IMG/VR virus record: IMGVR_UViG_3300046413_000007 | Span: 1-29,459 of that record | Length of the DNA stretch: 29,459 nt | Origin: a virus | Reading direction: 5' to 3' (one strand) | In this document: one piece after another, positions 4,754-29,424 of the stretch | Numbering within the stretch: position 1 is the first letter of the stretch | Layout: the number at the start of each line of letters is the position of its first letter | Program-made: the position numbers and the translations under genes | Notes under the pieces: model-generated | What the model saw: only the letters and a program-made list of their open reading frames with translations | The model's database searches: none | What the model was told of the DNA's origin: nothing

Positions 4754-4784
4754 CAAAAGTAATAAAATAAAATGATATCAACAA
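4754..4784 (-). promoter_or_regulatory. Early promoter, Bacteroidetes type
   Basis: Read on the minus strand, a TACTTTTG box (4761-4754) matches the Bacteroidetes -7 consensus TAnnTTTG exactly. Upstream, GTTGTTG supplies a -33 TTG at 17 or 20 bp spacing (4781-4779 or 4784-4782). Transcription would start near 4747 and feed the replication operon. The -33 region coincides with one copy of the TTGTTGATA repeat, so binding there could control the promoter. Confidence 0.8.
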
Positions 4785-11262: not shown

Positions 11263-11745
11263 TTATTGTCCGTAATATATATAATTTGTGCCACTAGGCT
11301 CTTGCCTTTGTGTGTATTGTACTTGCGCTGTTCCTGCTTTGTCTGCTACATACATCTTGCCTTTGGTTACTAACCCTTGCACTATGCCTTTAGTTGCAGC
11401 AGGAGGGCTTAAAACATCATTCTCGTTAGCAGGTGCATTACCTAAAGATATTGTTACAGCACCTACCCAACTTATTTCATACACTTCATATTTCCAAAAT
11501 CCAGAAGGTAAAAAATCAACTTTTCCAGTATAAACATTAGGAGTAGCATTATAATCAAATACAAACTTTGTGTATCTATCATAGATTAAATGAACTGTTG
11601 AATAAGCATACTGAATAGACTTATCCATGTCATTAGTGAACTTTACTAAGTGTCTTATCTTATCCGATCCTACTGAAGTGTCTATGCGATTATCTTCAGT
11701 CTGTAAGTAAGTTGTTAGGTTAGTTTCTGTAATTGCTTGTATCAT
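11263..11745 (-). CDS. Structural protein, 160 aa, first gene of a late transcript
   Basis: The protein starts MIQAITETNLTTYLQTEDNR, then IDTSVGSDKIRHLVKFTNDM and a beta-rich TKFVFDYNATPNVYTGKVDF. The middle is Trp/Tyr-rich (GFWKYEVYEISWVG). It resembles conserved structural proteins of flavobacterial phages without a defined role. Its ATG lies only four bases after a late promoter motif (11750-11779), so the mRNA may have almost no leader. A strong terminator stands just upstream, so expression depends on that promoter. Confidence 0.7.
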   Translation of the reverse strand: MIQAITETNLTTYLQTEDNRIDTSVGSDKIRHLVKFTNDMDKSIQYAYSTVHLIYDRYTKFVFDYNATPNVYTGKVDFLPSGFWKYEVYEISWVGAVTISLGNAPANENDVLSPPAATKGIVQGLVTKGKMYVADKAGTAQVQYTQRQEPSGTNYIYYGQ

Positions 11746-11749
11746 ACAC

Positions 11750-11779
11750 TATATAATAGAAAAACTCAATATTTATTTG
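11750..11779 (-). promoter_or_regulatory. Late promoter motif, copy 5
   Basis: CAAATAAATA, 9 bp (TTGAGTTTT), TCTATTATATA on the minus strand; both boxes match the consensus of the five copies fully. It lies directly after a strong terminator and four bases before the ATG at 11745, so it restarts transcription for the downstream virion, fibre and portal genes. The TAnnTTTG host-type box is absent. Confidence 0.65.
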
Positions 11780-12483: not shown

Positions 12484-13389
12484 TTACGATTGTCTTACGA
12501 TGTCAGCTCCAACTCCTGACTGAACACCTGCTGAGTATCTAGCAACCAATCTCATGTTGTCTGAGCCATCTAAAGCAGCCATGTCCATCAAAGTAATTCT
12601 AGTCGCATCTGATAACAAGTCAGTTCCAAAGAACAAGTTTGACTTCTGAGCTATTACCACCTCATTTTCTGCCATTCCGTTACAAACAGCGATTTTGTAG
12701 CCTTCAAACATTGGAATATAATTATCATTCATATTTTGGTAAGGGTAACCTGTTAAACCACTTAAAGCTGAAATGTAGTATTGGTAAGTTCTTTGACTCA
12801 TATAGATATGTAAGTCCTCTTTACCTAAAGTTGTAGTAGGTATAGAAGCAACTGCTCCTTGAAGCTCTCCAATAATAGTTGCAGCCGTGTAAGCACCTGC
12901 CGCTGCATCTTGAACAACTGTTGCATCAACTGCTGGTAATAATAAACCAGTTACAGCTCCTAAGAATCCATTGAATTTCCCTGGAACAGCAGTTCCAGTC
13001 CAAATTGAATCTTCAGTTGCTTCTGCTATAATTTCACCCATATAAGAGATTACATAGTCATCAAAAGAAGCGGGTGGAGGTGCGCCTGCTCCTGCTCTCA
13101 TTTGTAAAGCTTCCCATGAGTCTAGTAAGGTAGACTTGCAAAGATCTAGGTTAATTTGTAAATTTTTAGGTTCTAATACTTTTTCAGTAAGTGCTAAAGT
13201 ACCTGCTGGTGTAAAGTTACATTCTGCATCTGCAACTACTCCAGAGCCTGCCATTCTTTGTATGTTACTTTTAAATTTGATATTTTCTATCATTGTTAGA
13301 TAATCTAACGAGTTTGAAGCCTTTAATGCAGCACTGATGTAAAAACCAGCTGCCTTCCCTGCAAAATTACTTGTTGTAGTAAACGCCAT
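12484..13389 (-). CDS. Major capsid protein, HK97-like
   Basis: 301 residues. The N terminus FAGKAAGFYISAALKASNSL is of the kind seen in Bacteroidetes phage capsid proteins. The middle (DDYVISYMGEIIAEATEDSI, WTGT) looks like the HK97 spine helix. The C-terminal part has LHIYMSQRTYQYY, FEGYKIAVCNGMAENEVVIA and a final DNMRLVARYSAGVQSG, the P-domain and A-domain pattern of the HK97 fold. It forms the icosahedral shell. Position directly after scaffold and followed by a strong terminator supports it. The leader ends in nine A's and fits efficient initiation. Confidence 0.85.
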   Translation of the reverse strand: MAFTTTSNFAGKAAGFYISAALKASNSLDYLTMIENIKFKSNIQRMAGSGVVADAECNFTPAGTLALTEKVLEPKNLQINLDLCKSTLLDSWEALQMRAGAGAPPPASFDDYVISYMGEIIAEATEDSIWTGTAVPGKFNGFLGAVTGLLLPAVDATVVQDAAAGAYTAATIIGELQGAVASIPTTTLGKEDLHIYMSQRTYQYYISALSGLTGYPYQNMNDNYIPMFEGYKIAVCNGMAENEVVIAQKSNLFFGTDLLSDATRITLMDMAALDGSDNMRLVARYSAGVQSGVGADIVRQS

Positions 13390-13412: not shown

Positions 13413-14102
13413 TTATTTGATTAAATTGTATAAGAACTTCTCCTGACTTGTCATTCTTCTAAAATCCTGTGCAGTAGGAGTTGGTCTTTCTGAGCTAAAT
13501 TTGTTTGTATTAATTGGAGCATCAGCAGGACTTTCTGCTAATTCCGTTTTAAGTTTTTCGTTTTCAGCTTTAAGTTTTTCTAACTCTTCTTCTGCTGAAA
13601 ATTCTACTACTTCTTTAGTAGTTATAGTTTTAGGATTTTTAGATGGCTCAGTTACTTCTTCAGCCATTTCTTCTACATCTCCTGTTTCGCCTATTTGTTT
13701 TTTAAGATCACTAACCGCATCTTCTAAATTCTTGATACGCTTTTCCATACCTTGCCAGTCTGCTACATCAGCTTCTTCATCATAGTCATCTTCTTTAGCC
13801 ATTTCTTCAACTTCTTCAGATGCTTCAACTTCTTCTTCAGTTTCTGACTCAATAACTTCAGATACTACACCTTCTTCTTCAACTCTGAAAGAAACTCCCT
13901 CAGCAGTCTTATATGTGCCAATAGGTAAAGGTATTGTTGTACCATCTTCAGTAAGGACTGATATGTCCACGCCTGATTCTAATTCTTCAGCAGTAGAAAC
14001 AAAGATTGTGCCATCTTCTGACTTTGCTTGCCAAGCTAATTTAATTTCATCTTCGGCTTTGTTTAAGCCAAGTGCTACTAATATTTGTTCTTTAATGTCC
14101 AT
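13413..14102 (-). CDS. Capsid scaffolding protein
   Basis: 229 residues, very acidic, with a long Glu-rich middle (SETEEEVEASEEVEEMAKED), coiled-coil heptads (MEKRIKNLEDAVSDLKKQIG and EEELEKLKAENEKLKTELAE) and a basic C-terminal end (RRMTSQEKFLYNLIK) that would bind the capsid. This is the usual build of phage scaffold proteins, placed directly between protease and major capsid genes. A late promoter motif precedes it. The role is inferred from composition and context. Confidence 0.78.
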   Translation of the reverse strand: MDIKEQILVALGLNKAEDEIKLAWQAKSEDGTIFVSTAEELESGVDISVLTEDGTTIPLPIGTYKTAEGVSFRVEEEGVVSEVIESETEEEVEASEEVEEMAKEDDYDEEADVADWQGMEKRIKNLEDAVSDLKKQIGETGDVEEMAEEVTEPSKNPKTITTKEVVEFSAEEELEKLKAENEKLKTELAESPADAPINTNKFSSERPTPTAQDFRRMTSQEKFLYNLIK

Positions 14103-14114
14103 AGGTTCTTTTTT

Positions 14115-14144
14115 AATATAATAGAATAGTTATTTATTTATTTG
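14115..14144 (-). promoter_or_regulatory. Late promoter motif, copy 4
   Basis: CAAATAAATA, 9 bp (AATAACTAT), TCTATTATATT on the minus strand; one base differs from consensus in the second box. It lies in the 52-bp gap before the scaffold gene, with its end 12 bases from the ATG at 14102. It would drive scaffold, capsid and tail-tube expression. Confidence 0.65.
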
Positions 14145-15078: not shown

Positions 15079-15645
15079 TTAAAATGGTAGAGCATCTATA
15101 TCTTGCTCTAAACTTCTAGCTTTTTTTGATAAACTTTCAAACCTTGATATTTCTGCATCAGCCGTAGAATTTTTAATTCCTAATTCTTTTAATTGAGCAG
15201 AAATAGTATTTGCTAATTTTTCTCCTTGATCTGCTAAATTCCTTCCTTTTTGTAATGTTTCTCTTGTGTCTTTAAAAACAGGAGTTGTTTCTTTTTTTAA
15301 TGCTTCAAACTTTTTGTCTAACTCTTTTCTTTGTGCTATAAGCCCATTCCCTTCTTTATAAAGTTTATTTGATAGATTCGTAAGCTGTTCTCCTGCTGCA
15401 ACTGTATCTTCTAAGCTATTAGAAATCTTTTTTAAATCGCCAAAAGCTGAAAATTCAACTTTAGTTAAATTATATTCTTTTAATTCTTTTTCGTATTCTT
15501 CGTAAGTCTTTTTACCTAGTGGTGTTGGTCTCATCTTATTGTATTTTTTAGGATTAGCTTTTTCACAGGATTCTTTTGAGTCGTATTTACACTCTCCTGT
15601 ATTACCCCATTTGTATTTCCCATCTTTACATTGTTTACACGGCAT
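15079..15645 (-). CDS. Cys-rich head-module protein, 188 aa
   Basis: The N terminus is a small Cys motif (MPCKQCKDGKYKWGNTGECK, then YDSKESCEKANPKKY), followed by MRPTPLGKKTYEEYEKELKE, a stretch recurring in flavobacterial phage head proteins. The remaining two thirds are coiled-coil-like (LKKISNSLEDTVAAGEQLTN, LSKKARSLEQDIDALPF). The Cys residues may bind zinc. It lies just before the protease gene and may be an internal head or portal-associated protein. Its ATG is two bases after a late promoter motif. Function unknown. Confidence 0.68.
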   Translation of the reverse strand: MPCKQCKDGKYKWGNTGECKYDSKESCEKANPKKYNKMRPTPLGKKTYEEYEKELKEYNLTKVEFSAFGDLKKISNSLEDTVAAGEQLTNLSNKLYKEGNGLIAQRKELDKKFEALKKETTPVFKDTRETLQKGRNLADQGEKLANTISAQLKELGIKNSTADAEISRFESLSKKARSLEQDIDALPF

Positions 15646-15647
15646 AT

Positions 15648-15677
15648 TATATAATAGATTTAATTAATATTTATTTG
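15648..15677 (-). promoter_or_regulatory. Late promoter motif, copy 3
   Basis: CAAATAAATA, 9 bp (TTAATTAAA), TCTATTATATA; both boxes match the consensus fully. It lies between the tape-measure gene and the 188-residue head protein gene, with only two bases between motif and ATG. It would start the head-module transcript. Confidence 0.65.
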
Positions 15678-24423: not shown

Positions 24424-24453
24424 TATATAATAGAAATTGTTGATATTTAGTTT
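24424..24453 (-). promoter_or_regulatory. Late promoter motif, copy 2
   Basis: AAACTAAATA (8 of 10 to consensus), 9 bp (TCAACAATT), TCTATTATATA on the minus strand. It ends four bases before the chaperone ATG and lies in the only sizeable gap of the terminase/tail region. It overlaps the plus-strand promoter at 24437-24468, so the two cannot both be occupied at once. Confidence 0.6.
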
Positions 24454-24473: not shown

Positions 24474-24516
24474 TTTTAGTTAATAATTAGGGTACGCTTT
24501 ATGCTGCCCTTTTTTT
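24474..24516 (+). ncRNA. Possible short plus-strand RNA, about 40 nt
   Basis: This is the predicted transcript from the promoter at 24437-24468 to the terminator T-tract at 24511-24516. It would be a short single-stranded 5' part and a stem-loop. It carries no open frame. It overlaps the end of the terminase large-subunit gene only at its last bases. Start position is estimated from the -7 box; nothing proves it is made. Confidence 0.35.
24489..24516 (+). terminator. Rho-independent terminator, plus orientation
   Basis: AGGG-TA-CGC pairs with GCTGCCCT around a TTTAT loop (24489-24510; AGGG with CCCT and GC with GC, small mismatch between), followed by TTTTTT. The T-tract is in plus orientation. 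On the minus strand the same hairpin follows the terminase stop but without a T-tract, so it may terminate terminase mRNA weakly. Confidence 0.7.
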
Positions 24517-25717
24517 ATTGTACATAATACCTTCCTGCGTTTGGATTGTCTAAATGGTAGATTACGTTATACCTTATTCCGTCTATTGCGTGGTTGTATG
24601 AATCGTGATATAATTTAGAACCCTTGTCGCTGTATATATAATTATTTAGCTCTTTAGCTATGTTAGTTGATTCAGGTGTTATTACTAAGTGATAGTCTTG
24701 CATACGTGTTATACCACTTTCAATAGTTCCTTTCTTTACAGGTTTAATGTTTACTCCTAAATGCTTTAAGTCTGCTATTAGTCTTGGCTCTGCTGAGTCT
24801 GCTATGATAAGCTTCTGACCTACCTTGTCTAGTATTATCTGTGCTAGTTCATTTGACTTTAAACCATTCTTGTATATATGCTCTTTAAGATATATCCTCT
24901 GCCTTTTTTTGTCTATTGCTACTTCAGTCAATGAATCAGGATCTACTGAGAATCCAAAGTCCATACCACAAGATGTCTGTAAGTTATCAGGATTAAATTC
25001 TCCTATACTCCAATTATCAAATACTACACCATCTGCTCTGTCTAACCAGCCACCTAATATTTTATGTTGGTACTTCTTAAAGTTATTGTGCTTTATAGTC
25101 TTAATACGCTCTAGGAAACTCTCTGAGAGGTTTTCTCTGTTGTCTTCGTATGTACTATGGATATAGCATACATTGTCTTTAAAACCATTATATCCAGCTT
25201 CAACTCCTTTGTCTTCAAAAAACCTTTTATATATCCAATGCTCTTTTGTTACAGGGTTAAGTATAAGTATGATTCTATTCTGTATATTCTTTTCTCTAAT
25301 ACTTAAGTCTATTGTATCAAATATATCTTCATCAATAAGTTCTTCTGCTTCATCAAGTACCCAAGTGCTTACACCTTGTAATGACTTTAGACTTGCAGTC
25401 TGATTACCAGCTGATGTCTTGATACCTCTAAATAGTATGTCTGATTTATTCTTTAAATTTACTACTTCTGCTTTATTTACACTAAAGGTATTCTCATATC
25501 CTAATAGTATTATCTTTTCTAAGAACTCAGGAATGATTGACAAGTGAGCTGATACCATTGTAAAACGTGTAAACAATACTCTAATGCCTTCTGTCATTGT
25601 TAGTAGTGTAAGAAAGACTGTAACGGCAAATGACTTACCTGATCCTCTACCACCTGTGATAATGTAGTATCTAGCTTTAGATGAAAATAGTTCTTCGTAT
25701 TTCTTATTCAGTATCAA
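24515..25717 (-). CDS. terL: Terminase large subunit (PBSX-like)
   Basis: The motor and nuclease that packages phage DNA. Walker A is GGRGSGKS (residues 22-29) and Walker B WVLDEAEE (119-126), with a coupling motif near ILNPVTKEHW (152-161). The C-terminal nuclease shows the acidic residues in GMDFGFSVDP (Asp253), IIADSAEP (Asp307) and NHAIDGIRY (Asp379). At 400 residues it is of usual length for the Terminase_3/PBSX group, which is commonly linked to cos or pac packaging. It overlaps the small-subunit gene by 14 bases. Confidence 0.95.
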   Translation of the reverse strand: MILNKKYEELFSSKARYYIITGGRGSGKSFAVTVFLTLLTMTEGIRVLFTRFTMVSAHLSIIPEFLEKIILLGYENTFSVNKAEVVNLKNKSDILFRGIKTSAGNQTASLKSLQGVSTWVLDEAEELIDEDIFDTIDLSIREKNIQNRIILILNPVTKEHWIYKRFFEDKGVEAGYNGFKDNVCYIHSTYEDNRENLSESFLERIKTIKHNNFKKYQHKILGGWLDRADGVVFDNWSIGEFNPDNLQTSCGMDFGFSVDPDSLTEVAIDKKRQRIYLKEHIYKNGLKSNELAQIILDKVGQKLIIADSAEPRLIADLKHLGVNIKPVKKGTIESGITRMQDYHLVITPESTNIAKELNNYIYSDKGSKLYHDSYNHAIDGIRYNVIYHLDNPNAGRYYVQ

Positions 25718-25991
25718 TTCCTGTAAGTTTAATAACAGGTTCAGTTTCTACAAAGTTAATGATAGGCATATTTAGACTTTCTTCATTAGTTGTTACATCA
25801 ACTCTTTGTTGTGGTTTACCATAGAAGTATTCAAAGAATAACTTAACTGCCCATTGTTCTTTCTTTTCTAATCCTTGTTGTAGTGAGTCTAGTGCTAGAC
25901 TATTCATAGGTGTTAGATTCTCTATAAGCTTTTGTTCATCTGCTTTTGCTTTTCTACCTGCTCCTGTTCTTTTTCCTCCGTGTGTACTCAT
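25704..25991 (-). CDS. terS: Terminase small subunit
   Basis: 95 residues starting STHGGKRTGAGRKAKADEQK, the basic GGKR-GAGRK start frequent in small terminases, then a helical region with WAVKLFFEYFYGKPQQRVDV and an acidic C terminus. It should recognise the packaging site and bring it to the large subunit encoded next. A late promoter motif and about 34 bp of leader precede it, and the leader includes a short palindrome, TTGATTAATCAA. Confidence 0.85.
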   Translation of the reverse strand: MSTHGGKRTGAGRKAKADEQKLIENLTPMNSLALDSLQQGLEKKEQWAVKLFFEYFYGKPQQRVDVTTNEESLNMPIINFVETEPVIKLTGIDTE

Positions 25992-26022
25992 TTTGAAATA
26001 ATTTGATTAATCAAGTTGTTAT

Positions 26023-26052
26023 TATATAATAGAAATTACTCATATTCATTTG
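26023..26052 (-). promoter_or_regulatory. Late promoter motif, copy 1
   Basis: CAAATGAATA (9 of 10), 9 bp (TGAGTAATT), TCTATTATATA. The first box lies inside the last codons of the NinB-like gene and the second after its stop. It is the first motif in the late region and would start terminase expression; distance to the terminase ATG is about 30 bp. Confidence 0.65.
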
Positions 26053-27153: not shown

Positions 27154-27331
27154 TTTCTAGTATTTTAATTAGTCCGTCTTGTGTGTGTAAAGGTTTAGCA
27201 TCAGTAAACTTTCTATATTCTTCAGGAGAGTATATAAGCTTTACTTCTTTTACTAAGTCTTCATTATATTTCACTACCCATCTACTTGAATAGTGCATCT
27301 TATTTCTTTTTAGGTGTGCTAGGTAACTCAT
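27125..27331 (-). CDS. Hypothetical protein, 68 aa
   Basis: A basic protein starting SYLAHLKRNKMHYSSRWVVK, then YNEDLVKEVKLIYSPEEYRK. No domain recognised. It is coupled to the previous gene by ATGA. It could be a small regulatory or nucleic-acid-binding protein. Confidence 0.7.
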   Translation of the reverse strand: MSYLAHLKRNKMHYSSRWVVKYNEDLVKEVKLIYSPEEYRKFTDAKPLHTQDGLIKILENDKERRNQS

Positions 27332-27732
27332 TGGCTGTATTTTTTATATAGTTTCTTTATACCATCAAAACAAGTTGATATACAAGAACCACAATTAGTA
27401 TTAGTTTGATAGTTTGTGTTAAATATAACATTGTAAGTCTCTATCATTTTCTTTTTAGCTTGTACGTTTTTTGCTCTGCCTGTCTTTAAGTCTTCCCACA
27501 TATTTAATATTGCATCTATTATTTCTTGTGGTAAGTCATCAGGTGCTTTCATAACTTCAGTAGTCTGATCCCAATACTTCTGTGGACAATGTTGGTTAGC
27601 TATACGTGCCTTAATTTTCATAAAGCACATACAAATTTTACAACTACCTGTTGGCTTATAATAGTAAGCACATCCTTTACAGATTTCTATCCTATCTTCA
27701 TAGACTTCATTCTCTACAAAGAACCTATTCAT
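27328..27732 (-). CDS. Cys-rich zinc-binding protein, 134 aa
   Basis: The N-terminal segment has ICKGCAYYYKPTGSCKICMC, then FMKIKARIANQHCPQKYW, seven or more Cys/His residues in the order C-x2-C...C-x2-C-x-C...H-C, a probable zinc-binding domain. The second half is helical (DDLPQEIIDAILNMWEDLKT) and ends in a second Cys cluster, CGSCISTC. The ATG at 27732 overlaps the upstream TGA as ATGA and is preferred to one four codons earlier. It may be a transcription or nucleic-acid adaptor; it lies close to the sigma-like gene. Confidence 0.7.
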   Translation of the reverse strand: MNRFFVENEVYEDRIEICKGCAYYYKPTGSCKICMCFMKIKARIANQHCPQKYWDQTTEVMKAPDDLPQEIIDAILNMWEDLKTGRAKNVQAKKKMIETYNVIFNTNYQTNTNCGSCISTCFDGIKKLYKKYSQ

Positions 27733-27803
27733 TTCTTTCTCCAATCAGGATGTCTAAAGCCAAACATCATTACAAAACTATCATTCTTTACAGGATCATA
27801 CAT
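27729..27803 (-). CDS. Microprotein, 24 aa
   Basis: MYDPVKNDSFVMMFGFRHPD then WRKK. The ATG at 27803 (or one two codons earlier, 27809) lies within the end of the sigma-like gene, and its TGA overlaps the next ATG as ATGA. The frame fills the gap between the two genes exactly. Function unknown. Confidence 0.5.
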   Translation of the reverse strand: MYDPVKNDSFVMMFGFRHPDWRKK

Positions 27804-28380
27804 CTTCATTTAATTCATTTTTTAGTATTGTTCTTACTTTATCTATTGTTGTAAATAAACTATTACGACTTATCTTAGTCTTTTTAGCTAGTGAGTCTAA
27901 TGTATTGCCTTCATAGTAATATAACTTGAATAATTCTCTGTCGTACCAATTTTCTAGCTTGTCGAGCTGTTTATCTATAATTTCTAACTTATGTAATTGA
28001 GCATTGTCTACTTCTGCATTAGGAATGTTTGATAGACTCTTATAATAATTATTATCATTTCCATAGTCAAGATGATTACTAGAGACGCTAACATTGTTAG
28101 TAAAGCTATCAATACGTGTATAATACTTTTCATACTTATAATAAAAATTACTTCTCTTACTTGTCAATGCCCTTCTTAGTGCTACTGCTCCGTATCTTGT
28201 TAAACCATCTATACCATCACTTTCATATATTTTTTTAATTACTTGTGGATTAGCTTGAAGTAGATATAACATCAATTCTTGTACTGCTTCATTTATCTTG
28301 TTTTCATCTGTCGTTAATCTGTATGACATAGTTCTAAACTTATCTGTAAGCTTAGCTATTTCAAGATATATCTTATTCAT
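27796..28380 (-). CDS. Sigma factor-like protein
   Basis: 194 residues. The first part is helical (TDENKINEAVQELMLYLLQA, GLTRYGAVALRRAL), as in sigma region 2. The C-terminal part (about 145-190) reads ENWYDRELFKLYYYEGNTLD, SLAKKTKISRNSLFTTIDKV, a region-4 helix-turn-helix that would read a -35 element. The middle is a long Asn/Tyr-rich linker. It probably redirects host RNA polymerase to late promoters; the five bipartite motifs are candidate targets. Similar sigma-like proteins occur in Bacteroidetes phages. It overlaps the previous gene by eight bases. Confidence 0.68.
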   Translation of the reverse strand: MNKIYLEIAKLTDKFRTMSYRLTTDENKINEAVQELMLYLLQANPQVIKKIYESDGIDGLTRYGAVALRRALTSKRSNFYYKYEKYYTRIDSFTNNVSVSSNHLDYGNDNNYYKSLSNIPNAEVDNAQLHKLEIIDKQLDKLENWYDRELFKLYYYEGNTLDSLAKKTKISRNSLFTTIDKVRTILKNELNEDV

Positions 28381-28729
28381 TTGTTGTTTCTAATAAACTT
28401 ATTTTATCTACTGTCTCTTGTAGTATTTCTTCAAGGACTACCTTATACGTTCTTATTACTGCTCTGTTACGTTTAGTTTCAACTCCAGCAAAAAAACCAT
28501 TTGTAGCTACTGATAAGTTAATTGGTATTATCATAAGCCAATCATAAAAGTTATTTTCTTCAACTCCACTACCATAACCATTATGATATTCTAATATAAT
28601 TTTTAAAACATCTTTGTAATTATTGTACTTAGTTTTACTACTTACGTCTTTTGCAAACTCTTTACACATATTAATATAAAGATCTATTAATGCTTTGTGT
28701 TCTTGACTTGAGTAAATAAGTTCTATCAT
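28373..28729 (-). CDS. Hypothetical protein, 118 aa
   Basis: Helical, starting IELIYSSQEHKALIDLYINM, with a FYDWLMIIPINLSVATNGFF hydrophobic middle and a charged ETKRNRAVIRTYKVVLEEIL helix. The middle could be a buried helix or a membrane touch; no clear topology. It precedes the sigma-like gene and overlaps it by eight bases. Not recognised. Confidence 0.72.
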   Translation of the reverse strand: MIELIYSSQEHKALIDLYINMCKEFAKDVSSKTKYNNYKDVLKIILEYHNGYGSGVEENNFYDWLMIIPINLSVATNGFFAGVETKRNRAVIRTYKVVLEEILQETVDKISLLETTNE

Positions 28730-29156: not shown

Positions 29157-29424
29157 ACCCTAAGTTTTTTCTCCATTCTTCTTGTAGTTTACCTTTACGT
29201 ATTTTATATGCTTCTCCTCTTAAACCTGGTTCTTCTTCTTGAAGCTTTGCTCTCATTCTTCTTATACTCTCAGCATTAGTTAATTCATTATCTGCATACT
29301 TATGTAAAAAATTTAATGCAGTTATTTCTTCAGCATCTATGTTCTTATTGTTTAATTCTCTTTTTATTTTTATTTTTTTTATCGCTTCTCTAATTTCTTT
29401 TCTTGTTCTTTTTGGATTACTCAT
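29143..29424 (-). CDS. Highly charged hypothetical protein, 93 aa
   Basis: Starts SNPKRTRKEIREAIKKIKIK and ends KGKLQEEWRKNLGYENN; alternating basic and acidic stretches with a predicted coiled coil. No family recognised. It may bind DNA. It follows the end of the edge-spanning small gene by two bases (stop 29429-29427), fitting a single continuous operon across the window join. Confidence 0.68.
   Translation of the reverse strand: MSNPKRTRKEIREAIKKIKIKRELNNKNIDAEEITALNFLHKYADNELTNAESIRRMRAKLQEEEPGLRGEAYKIRKGKLQEEWRKNLGYENN

Follow-up and report, generated by a model that had tools for sequence, protein, structure and literature searches.

A putative phage-encoded ECF-type sigma factor and its candidate late promoters in ocean relatives of flavobacterial phages

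We analyzed a virus record of 29,459 bp (hereafter, the window), in which the recognizable genes all lie on the minus strand, and find that this small ocean phage, a relative of flavobacterial phages, very probably carries its own sigma factor. The gene at 27796..28380 (minus strand, ATG start) encodes a protein of 194 aa that is most probably an ECF-type sigma factor running the switch from early to late transcription. In the scheme that we propose, host RNA polymerase carrying the primary sigma of the host would start the early operon at a TTG...TAnnTTTG promoter, as predicted from the DNA sequence, and the phage sigma would then bind host core polymerase and open a set of late promoters, in each of which a spacer of fixed length separates a -35 box of the AAAC/AAAT type from a TTTCTATTATATA -10 box. 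These candidate promoters precede the packaging, head and tail genes. For the most frequent types of site, the predicted transcription start coincides with the start codon or lies no more than ~2 nt from it.

Sequence and predicted structure of the sigma factor

A sequence-only reading of the window had described this ORF as a sigma-like factor with a region-2-like helical N-terminus and a region-4-like helix-turn-helix, and the family matches, the profile of diverse members, and the fold matches all bear out an ECF-type protein. The region 2 part comprises residues 1-93 (28102..28380, minus strand), including the VQE signature of region 2.1 at residues 33-35, while the region 4 part with its helix-turn-helix comprises residues 126-190 (27811..28005, minus strand). 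A small protein consisting of regions 2 and 4 only, joined by a linker, is as expected of the ECF type. Relatives of the ORF number at least 564 in environmental viral contigs. The NCBIfam sigma70-ECF model TIGR02937 gives a near full-length match in 67/67 family members (best E 7e-12), and in the window protein, it covers both domains (residues 20-190, E 2.8e-8). The corresponding score of 33.6 bits is under the curated cut-off of 42.9 bits, which is a matter of the annotation threshold rather than a biological feature; we keep the protein in the ECF superfamily because a profile of 64 diverse members, compared with the PDB by sequence, finds SigW (1.9e-9). The same profile also finds SigR (7.1e-8), SigH and SigL, and V33 and Q34 are conserved at 90% or more across the 64 members. 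A profile of the close family alone finds no sigma factor in the PDB by sequence, and a single-sequence search gives a weak match to Pfam Sigma70_r4 (E 0.034, 14.1 bits against a cut-off of 24.1). When seeded with gp33 of Nonlabens phage P12024S, jackhmmer gathers the window family and its freshwater and soil counterparts as one family of 233 loci. The window sigma has no tblastn match in 50,697 phage records, and the window itself contains 0 Rfam matches and 0 tRNA genes.

In the AlphaFold2 model of the window protein (pLDDT 75, pTM 0.44), two helical domains are predicted at residues 2-93 and 126-189, with a low-confidence linker at residues 89-125 and an undefined domain arrangement. The first Foldseek matches of this model are ECF sigma factors in initiation complexes (SigL, 6dv9, E 6.6e-4). 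Residues 1-80 superpose on region 2 of SigR (1h3l) with 1.9 Å over 70 residues (VIA-align 2), and residues 126-193 superpose on region 4 of E. coli SigE with -35 DNA (2h27) with 2.6 Å over 67 residues (Z 9.6). The large rmsd values in full-length structure matches we take as an effect of the domain arrangement. In the AlphaFold comparison with ECF sigma factors that had been suggested for this protein, the predicted structure resembles sigma regions 2 and 4.

Genomic context of the sigma gene

The large terminase of the window is 64% identical to that of P12024S, and comparison with the order of genes in relatives shows the record to be circularly permuted. This order runs from the replication block (4756 down to 110) through the gene at 29424, ninG (28752), the 28373 protein, and the sigma gene to several small genes and ninB (26036), after which come the terminase and structural genes. 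The small (by position) and large terminase genes, at 24515..25991 on the minus strand, form the first late unit. The sigma gene had been placed near the end of the early transcript, just before the first late motif: gene order in relatives agrees with a distal position in the early operon, but "just before" is loose, as the first late site (26024-26033) lies ~1.8 kb downstream with several small genes in between.

Between 26036 and 29156 (minus strand), the sigma gene is flanked by ninG- and ninB-like genes, akin to the lambda nin region, which stands before Q. With the sigma gene at its end in such surroundings, the early operon resembles that of lambda in the placement of Q. Lambda Q, RinA and ArpU act as late switches and are encoded where the early region ends, close to nin-type genes or the terminase; none of them is a sigma factor with regions 2 and 4.

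The gene at 28373..28729 (minus strand) encodes a 118-aa four-helix protein, and its end overlaps the start of the sigma gene by a few bases. The same overlap is seen in 169 of the 183 homologs, and the neighbor is retained in the marine clade. The protein is predicted as a confident four-helix bundle (pLDDT 93) and is possibly a partner of the sigma; comparison of its fold with the PDB for an anti-sigma factor or cofactor gave nothing significant (best match E 0.96).

Most marine loci were fetched via the sigma itself, and the count of its presence was therefore restricted to loci fetched by the terminase alone. In these, the sigma is found upstream of the large terminase in 83/108 loci with more than 2 kb upstream, 73/76 with more than 3.5 kb, and 51/51 with more than 5 kb; the distance from sigma to terminase is up to 5 kb. 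A sigma search in 44 records left one, L262 (25.8 kb), without a match, though a similar box follows its terminase. Two records have two sigma matches each: G035 (the record of L237) and G007 (the record of L040). In G007, one match lies at either end of the contig (5-439, partial, and 27228-27803), as would fit a genome that is circular or has terminal repeats. Among genome contigs, the sigma family was found at two loci only (L297 and L298), both on phage-like contigs within MAGs labeled Euryarchaeota and Pseudooceanicola; these placements are probably binning errors, and we assign no host from them.

A two-box motif ahead of late genes

Five copies of a non-host promoter motif had been reported from the sequence alone, and they prove to be real: TCTATTATAT occurs exactly 5 times in the window, always on the coding (minus) strand, compared to a mean of 0.48 in dinucleotide shuffles, of which 0/100 reach 5. 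With the upstream box included, the 5 sites compare to 0.21 expected, and again 0/100 shuffles reach 5. All five candidate late promoters are on the minus strand. The first (two boxes, 26024..26052) precedes the small and large terminase genes, and the second (two boxes, 24425..24453) ends 5 nt ahead of the ATG of the gene after the large terminase. The third (15649..15677) precedes the gene at 15079-15645, the fourth (14116..14144) precedes the gene at 13413-14102 and a structural gene at 12484-13389, and the fifth (11751..11779) precedes the gene at 11263-11745. The sites previously named 14115 and 11750 correspond to 14116-14125 and 11751-11760. The genes at 15079, 13413 and 11263 adjoin head and structural genes.

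As a separate observation, the leader from promoter 1 to the small terminase (25992-26023, minus strand) contains a conserved palindrome, TTGATTAATCAA, followed by TTTCAA right before the ATG; it may be an operator or an RNA element. The same palindrome leader is present in L072, L081, L155, L204, L212 and L298.

With a 36-position PWM built from the five window sites (threshold of at least 14 bits), 162 relative loci comprising 1.47 Mb yield 237 matches on the coding strand versus 1 on the opposite strand. Some of these loci overlap, and overlapping loci are included in the count of 237 as well as in that of 364 given below; duplicate site contexts were removed for counts of unique sites, gaps and distances. 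The 201 unique sites give one consensus, AAmTrAAta-N6-aATTTCTATTATATA, and TAAACTA starts 20 nt ahead of TCTATTATAT in 77 of the 78 unique sites that have TAAACTA. A further 110 unique sites have another form of the upstream box, such as CAAATGAAT before the terminase. We thus observe a repeated two-box element with fixed spacing, -35/-10 geometry and a strong strand bias, which stands before late genes and is nearly absent before early genes.

When 244 unique sites are sorted by downstream gene, 114 belong to the gene after the large terminase, 72 to the small terminase, 50 to a gene without a window orthologue, and 4 to the genes at 11263, 15079 or 13413, while 4 have no ORF. Exact TCTATTATAT is present in 72 of the 101 unique stretches upstream of the small terminase; the 29 stretches without it are mainly from non-marine kin, short stretches and a changed sub-lineage. 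Two sites, in L088 and L214, fit no late gene. In L098, L101, L110, L122 and others, an inserted gene starting MKQQVKIS stands ahead of the terminase, and a separate copy of the late promoter lies 3 nt upstream of the ATG of this gene. At up to one mismatch, TTTCTATTATATA is present in 29/29 near-complete marine records and in 0/1 P12024S record (30 records given), with 110 places in total in the marine records versus 16 for the reversed pattern. Some of these 110 places are on the other strand, where the L081 record has one exact copy and the one-mismatch matches are probably due to chance.

A host-type promoter before the early operon

A candidate host-type promoter, TTG-N20-TACTTTTG, is located before the early operon at 4754..4784 (minus strand). 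TTG forms part of the flavobacterial primary-sigma promoter. TAnnTTTG is given as the flavobacterial primary-sigma box in the available text of PMC9723704. A strict search for TTTG-N17-24-TAnnTTTG across the window gave 2 matches, under the 2.85 expected, and the TTG form was used on early gaps after this search, with the reverse strand as the control. In the gap before the early operon, TTG-N17-23-TAnnTTTG is present in 31/46 unique relatives versus 8/46 on the reverse strand, leaving 15/46 early gaps without the host-type pattern. By these sequence patterns, the early genes would be served by host-sigma promoters.

At late sites, TAnnTTTG is rare, lying nearby in only 6/364 (sites not deduplicated), and this count bears on an alternative in which the protein acts as a RinA/ArpU- or Q-type late activator, binding the upstream box and either recruiting host primary-sigma polymerase or antiterminating. 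The best PHROG match of the window protein, to its C-terminal part, is phrog_36 "transcriptional regulator" (3.4e-5), phrog_79 "Q-like" and DUF1492 are also among its matches, and its location upstream of the terminase is typical of late-activator regulators. Regulators of this type, however, have a DNA-binding part, region-4-like or other, without sigma region 2, whereas the window protein contains region 2, complete with the VQE signature and a fold like that of SigR region 2, and TIGR02937 spans both domains. Such an activator would also work with the host -7 box that is so rare at late sites, and it leaves their own conserved -10 box unexplained. We consider a late activator unlikely.

Correspondence of sigma type and motif type

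The earlier proposal that the phage sigma reads the late motif is supported by the two-box -35/-10 geometry, by the presence of a host-type promoter ahead of the early operon and its near absence from late sites, and by a motif type that tracks the sigma clade. We infer that the sigma binds late-promoter DNA with the host core enzyme. P12024S and its kin, in which the sigmas are 15-21% identical to that of the window, contain no copy of the window motif. The motif of this group, obtained by EM on 38 upstream regions, is AAACAAA-N14-CGTTAaTAa (log-likelihood of 207 versus 82-91 in 3 shuffled sets), and it ends 3-5 nt ahead of the ATG in the 13 best sites. The CGT of its downstream box is a hallmark of ECF promoters and lends further support to reading by the phage sigma. 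Exact copies of AAACAAA-N14-CGTTA number 4-5 in each of 4/4 P12024S-type records and 0 in 4/4 marine records searched (19 records given), with one exact match outside the P12024S group in a freshwater/soil record, G038. The marine and P12024S motif types show no overlap in the records searched, and the window sigma and P12024S gp33 would each be expected to use their own type among CTATTATATA and CGTTAATATA promoters.

Within the marine clade, the -10 box ahead of the small terminase is changed in L116, L135 and L146, which have TTACATTATAT there in place of TTCTATTATAT; their second site also shows variants. The sigmas of L116 and L146 are among the most diverged (60% and 59%), that of L135 was not seen, and the motif change in this sub-lineage is probably one event. 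The sole unusual position shared by the L116 and L146 sigmas is 57, and we claim no residue as the explanation of the change. In freshwater/soil relatives, boxes such as ACAAAA...CGTTTATA were spotted by eye only at the corresponding place, and a de novo EM search across 65 upstream regions from the freshwater/soil group settled on coding homology and gave no promoter. The pairing of sigma and motif may partly reflect common descent, with both diverging along the phage tree; co-divergence along a single tree is a weaker argument than recombinants, and the compared set is without recombinants.

The pairing is also informative on whether a host ECF sigma, or some other factor of the phage, reads the late motif instead, the phage sigma serving other promoters. 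The P12024S-type AAAC...CGTTA resembles ECF promoters in general: in the available text of the sources, CGT in the -10 box marks ECF promoters (PMC9723704, PMC3397946) and is the ECF mark in Flavobacterium, where it defines the SM6 box (PMC9723704). Another reader is nonetheless very unlikely, given that the motif type follows the phage sigma type, that all 51 testable terminase-fetched loci contain the sigma, and that a scan of 37 of the 47 genes called in the window (some against Pfam only, some against PHROGs only) finds neither an RNA polymerase nor a second sigma.

Start-codon distance and predicted leaderless mRNAs

The distance from the element to the ATG falls into site classes of 3-6 nt, about 8 nt, or 31-33 nt, the last being seen at many small-terminase sites. 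Because this distance varies by site class, the element is more likely to act as DNA than as RNA: an RNA-level signal for translation or processing, with no promoter, would suit the many sites at which the element ends 3-6 nt ahead of the ATG, but it is hardly credible in light of the longer distance at the small terminase, the near absence of the element before early genes, and a two-box spacing that matches -35/-10 geometry. At the gene after the large terminase, 108 unique sites have an ATG at most 20 nt away, of which 67 read MKVK and 0 have another Met in the next 14 residues, and judging from these reading frames, the ATG adjoining the box appears to be the true start.

In a tested ECF promoter, CGTC occupies -13 to -10 (PMC3397946, available text). 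If the C of CTATTA or CGTTAA is likewise placed at -13, the most frequent sites would have their transcription start no more than ~2 nt from the ATG, and the mRNAs would thus be nearly leaderless. We infer that many late mRNAs are nearly leaderless, with the promoter often ending 3-6 nt before the start codon, and that a leader of ~30 nt would remain on the window's terminase mRNA. In Flavobacterium psychrophilum, leaderless mRNAs are only 5.5% of those mapped (PMC9723704, available text). We propose tentatively, with somewhat less than even confidence, that the phage sigma sets starts at or within ~2 nt of late ATGs such that much late expression occurs on leaderless mRNAs, and that the family is a natural series in which sigma and promoter have changed in step, from CGTTAATA to CTATTATATA types, so that rules of recognition by ECF sigmas could be deduced from it.

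Comparison to known systems

By analogy, the proposed mechanism matches that of Salmonella phage 7-11 and would thus be known in kind. In the available text of PMC8948821, the 7-11 sigma SaPh711_gp47 is shown in vitro, with late promoters of the form GTAAtg-(16)-aCTA. Like the window sigma, gp47 is described there as an ECF-like phage protein with region 4 and bipartite late promoters, the early genes being transcribed from host-sigma promoters; late transcripts of the 7-11 type start 6-9 bp from the element and require the phage sigma. Profile A3 aligns with gp47 over 134 columns (hhalign probability 85%, E 6.5e-6), while profile A1 alone fails to find it (probability 4.5%). The window differs from 7-11 in the phylum of the host and in promoter sequence, its genes are on one strand, and its predicted sigma is encoded within the early operon, ahead of the terminase. 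A second phage sigma, gp36 of phiEco32, drives non-early genes with the host core enzyme, but it recognizes a single-element promoter, tAATGTAtA, and is without region 4 homology (PMC8948821, available text), whereas the window system has two boxes and region 4.

The closest comparison in a flavobacterial phage is P12024S gp33, which is annotated as a hypothetical protein "containing Sigma-70 region 2." Like the window sigma, it lies upstream of the large terminase, belongs to the ECF superfamily and has its own two-box motif; it differs in being only ~15% identical (P12024L copy) and in the motif, AAACAAA-N14-CGTTA. Profile A1 gives a weak alignment with gp33 (50 columns, probability 43%).

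Our literature search found no description of a phage sigma with late promoters for flavobacterial or other Bacteroidota phages, and a term search of the available text of PMC8776804, PMC7198788, PMC7077304 and PMC11946311 found no phage sigma factor or promoter. As far as these searches show, the family, its promoters, its occurrence in relatives of flavobacterial phages and the leaderless prediction are new.

With this motif, late operons can be called from sequence alone, and a concrete, testable program of gene expression becomes available for ocean phages of an abundant group that is largely uncultured. The numerous pairs of sigma and promoter comprise two or more clearly distinct specificities as well as one altered sub-lineage and provide material on promoter choice by ECF sigma factors, and late promoters that are independent of the unusual flavobacterial primary sigma could serve flavobacterial genetics.
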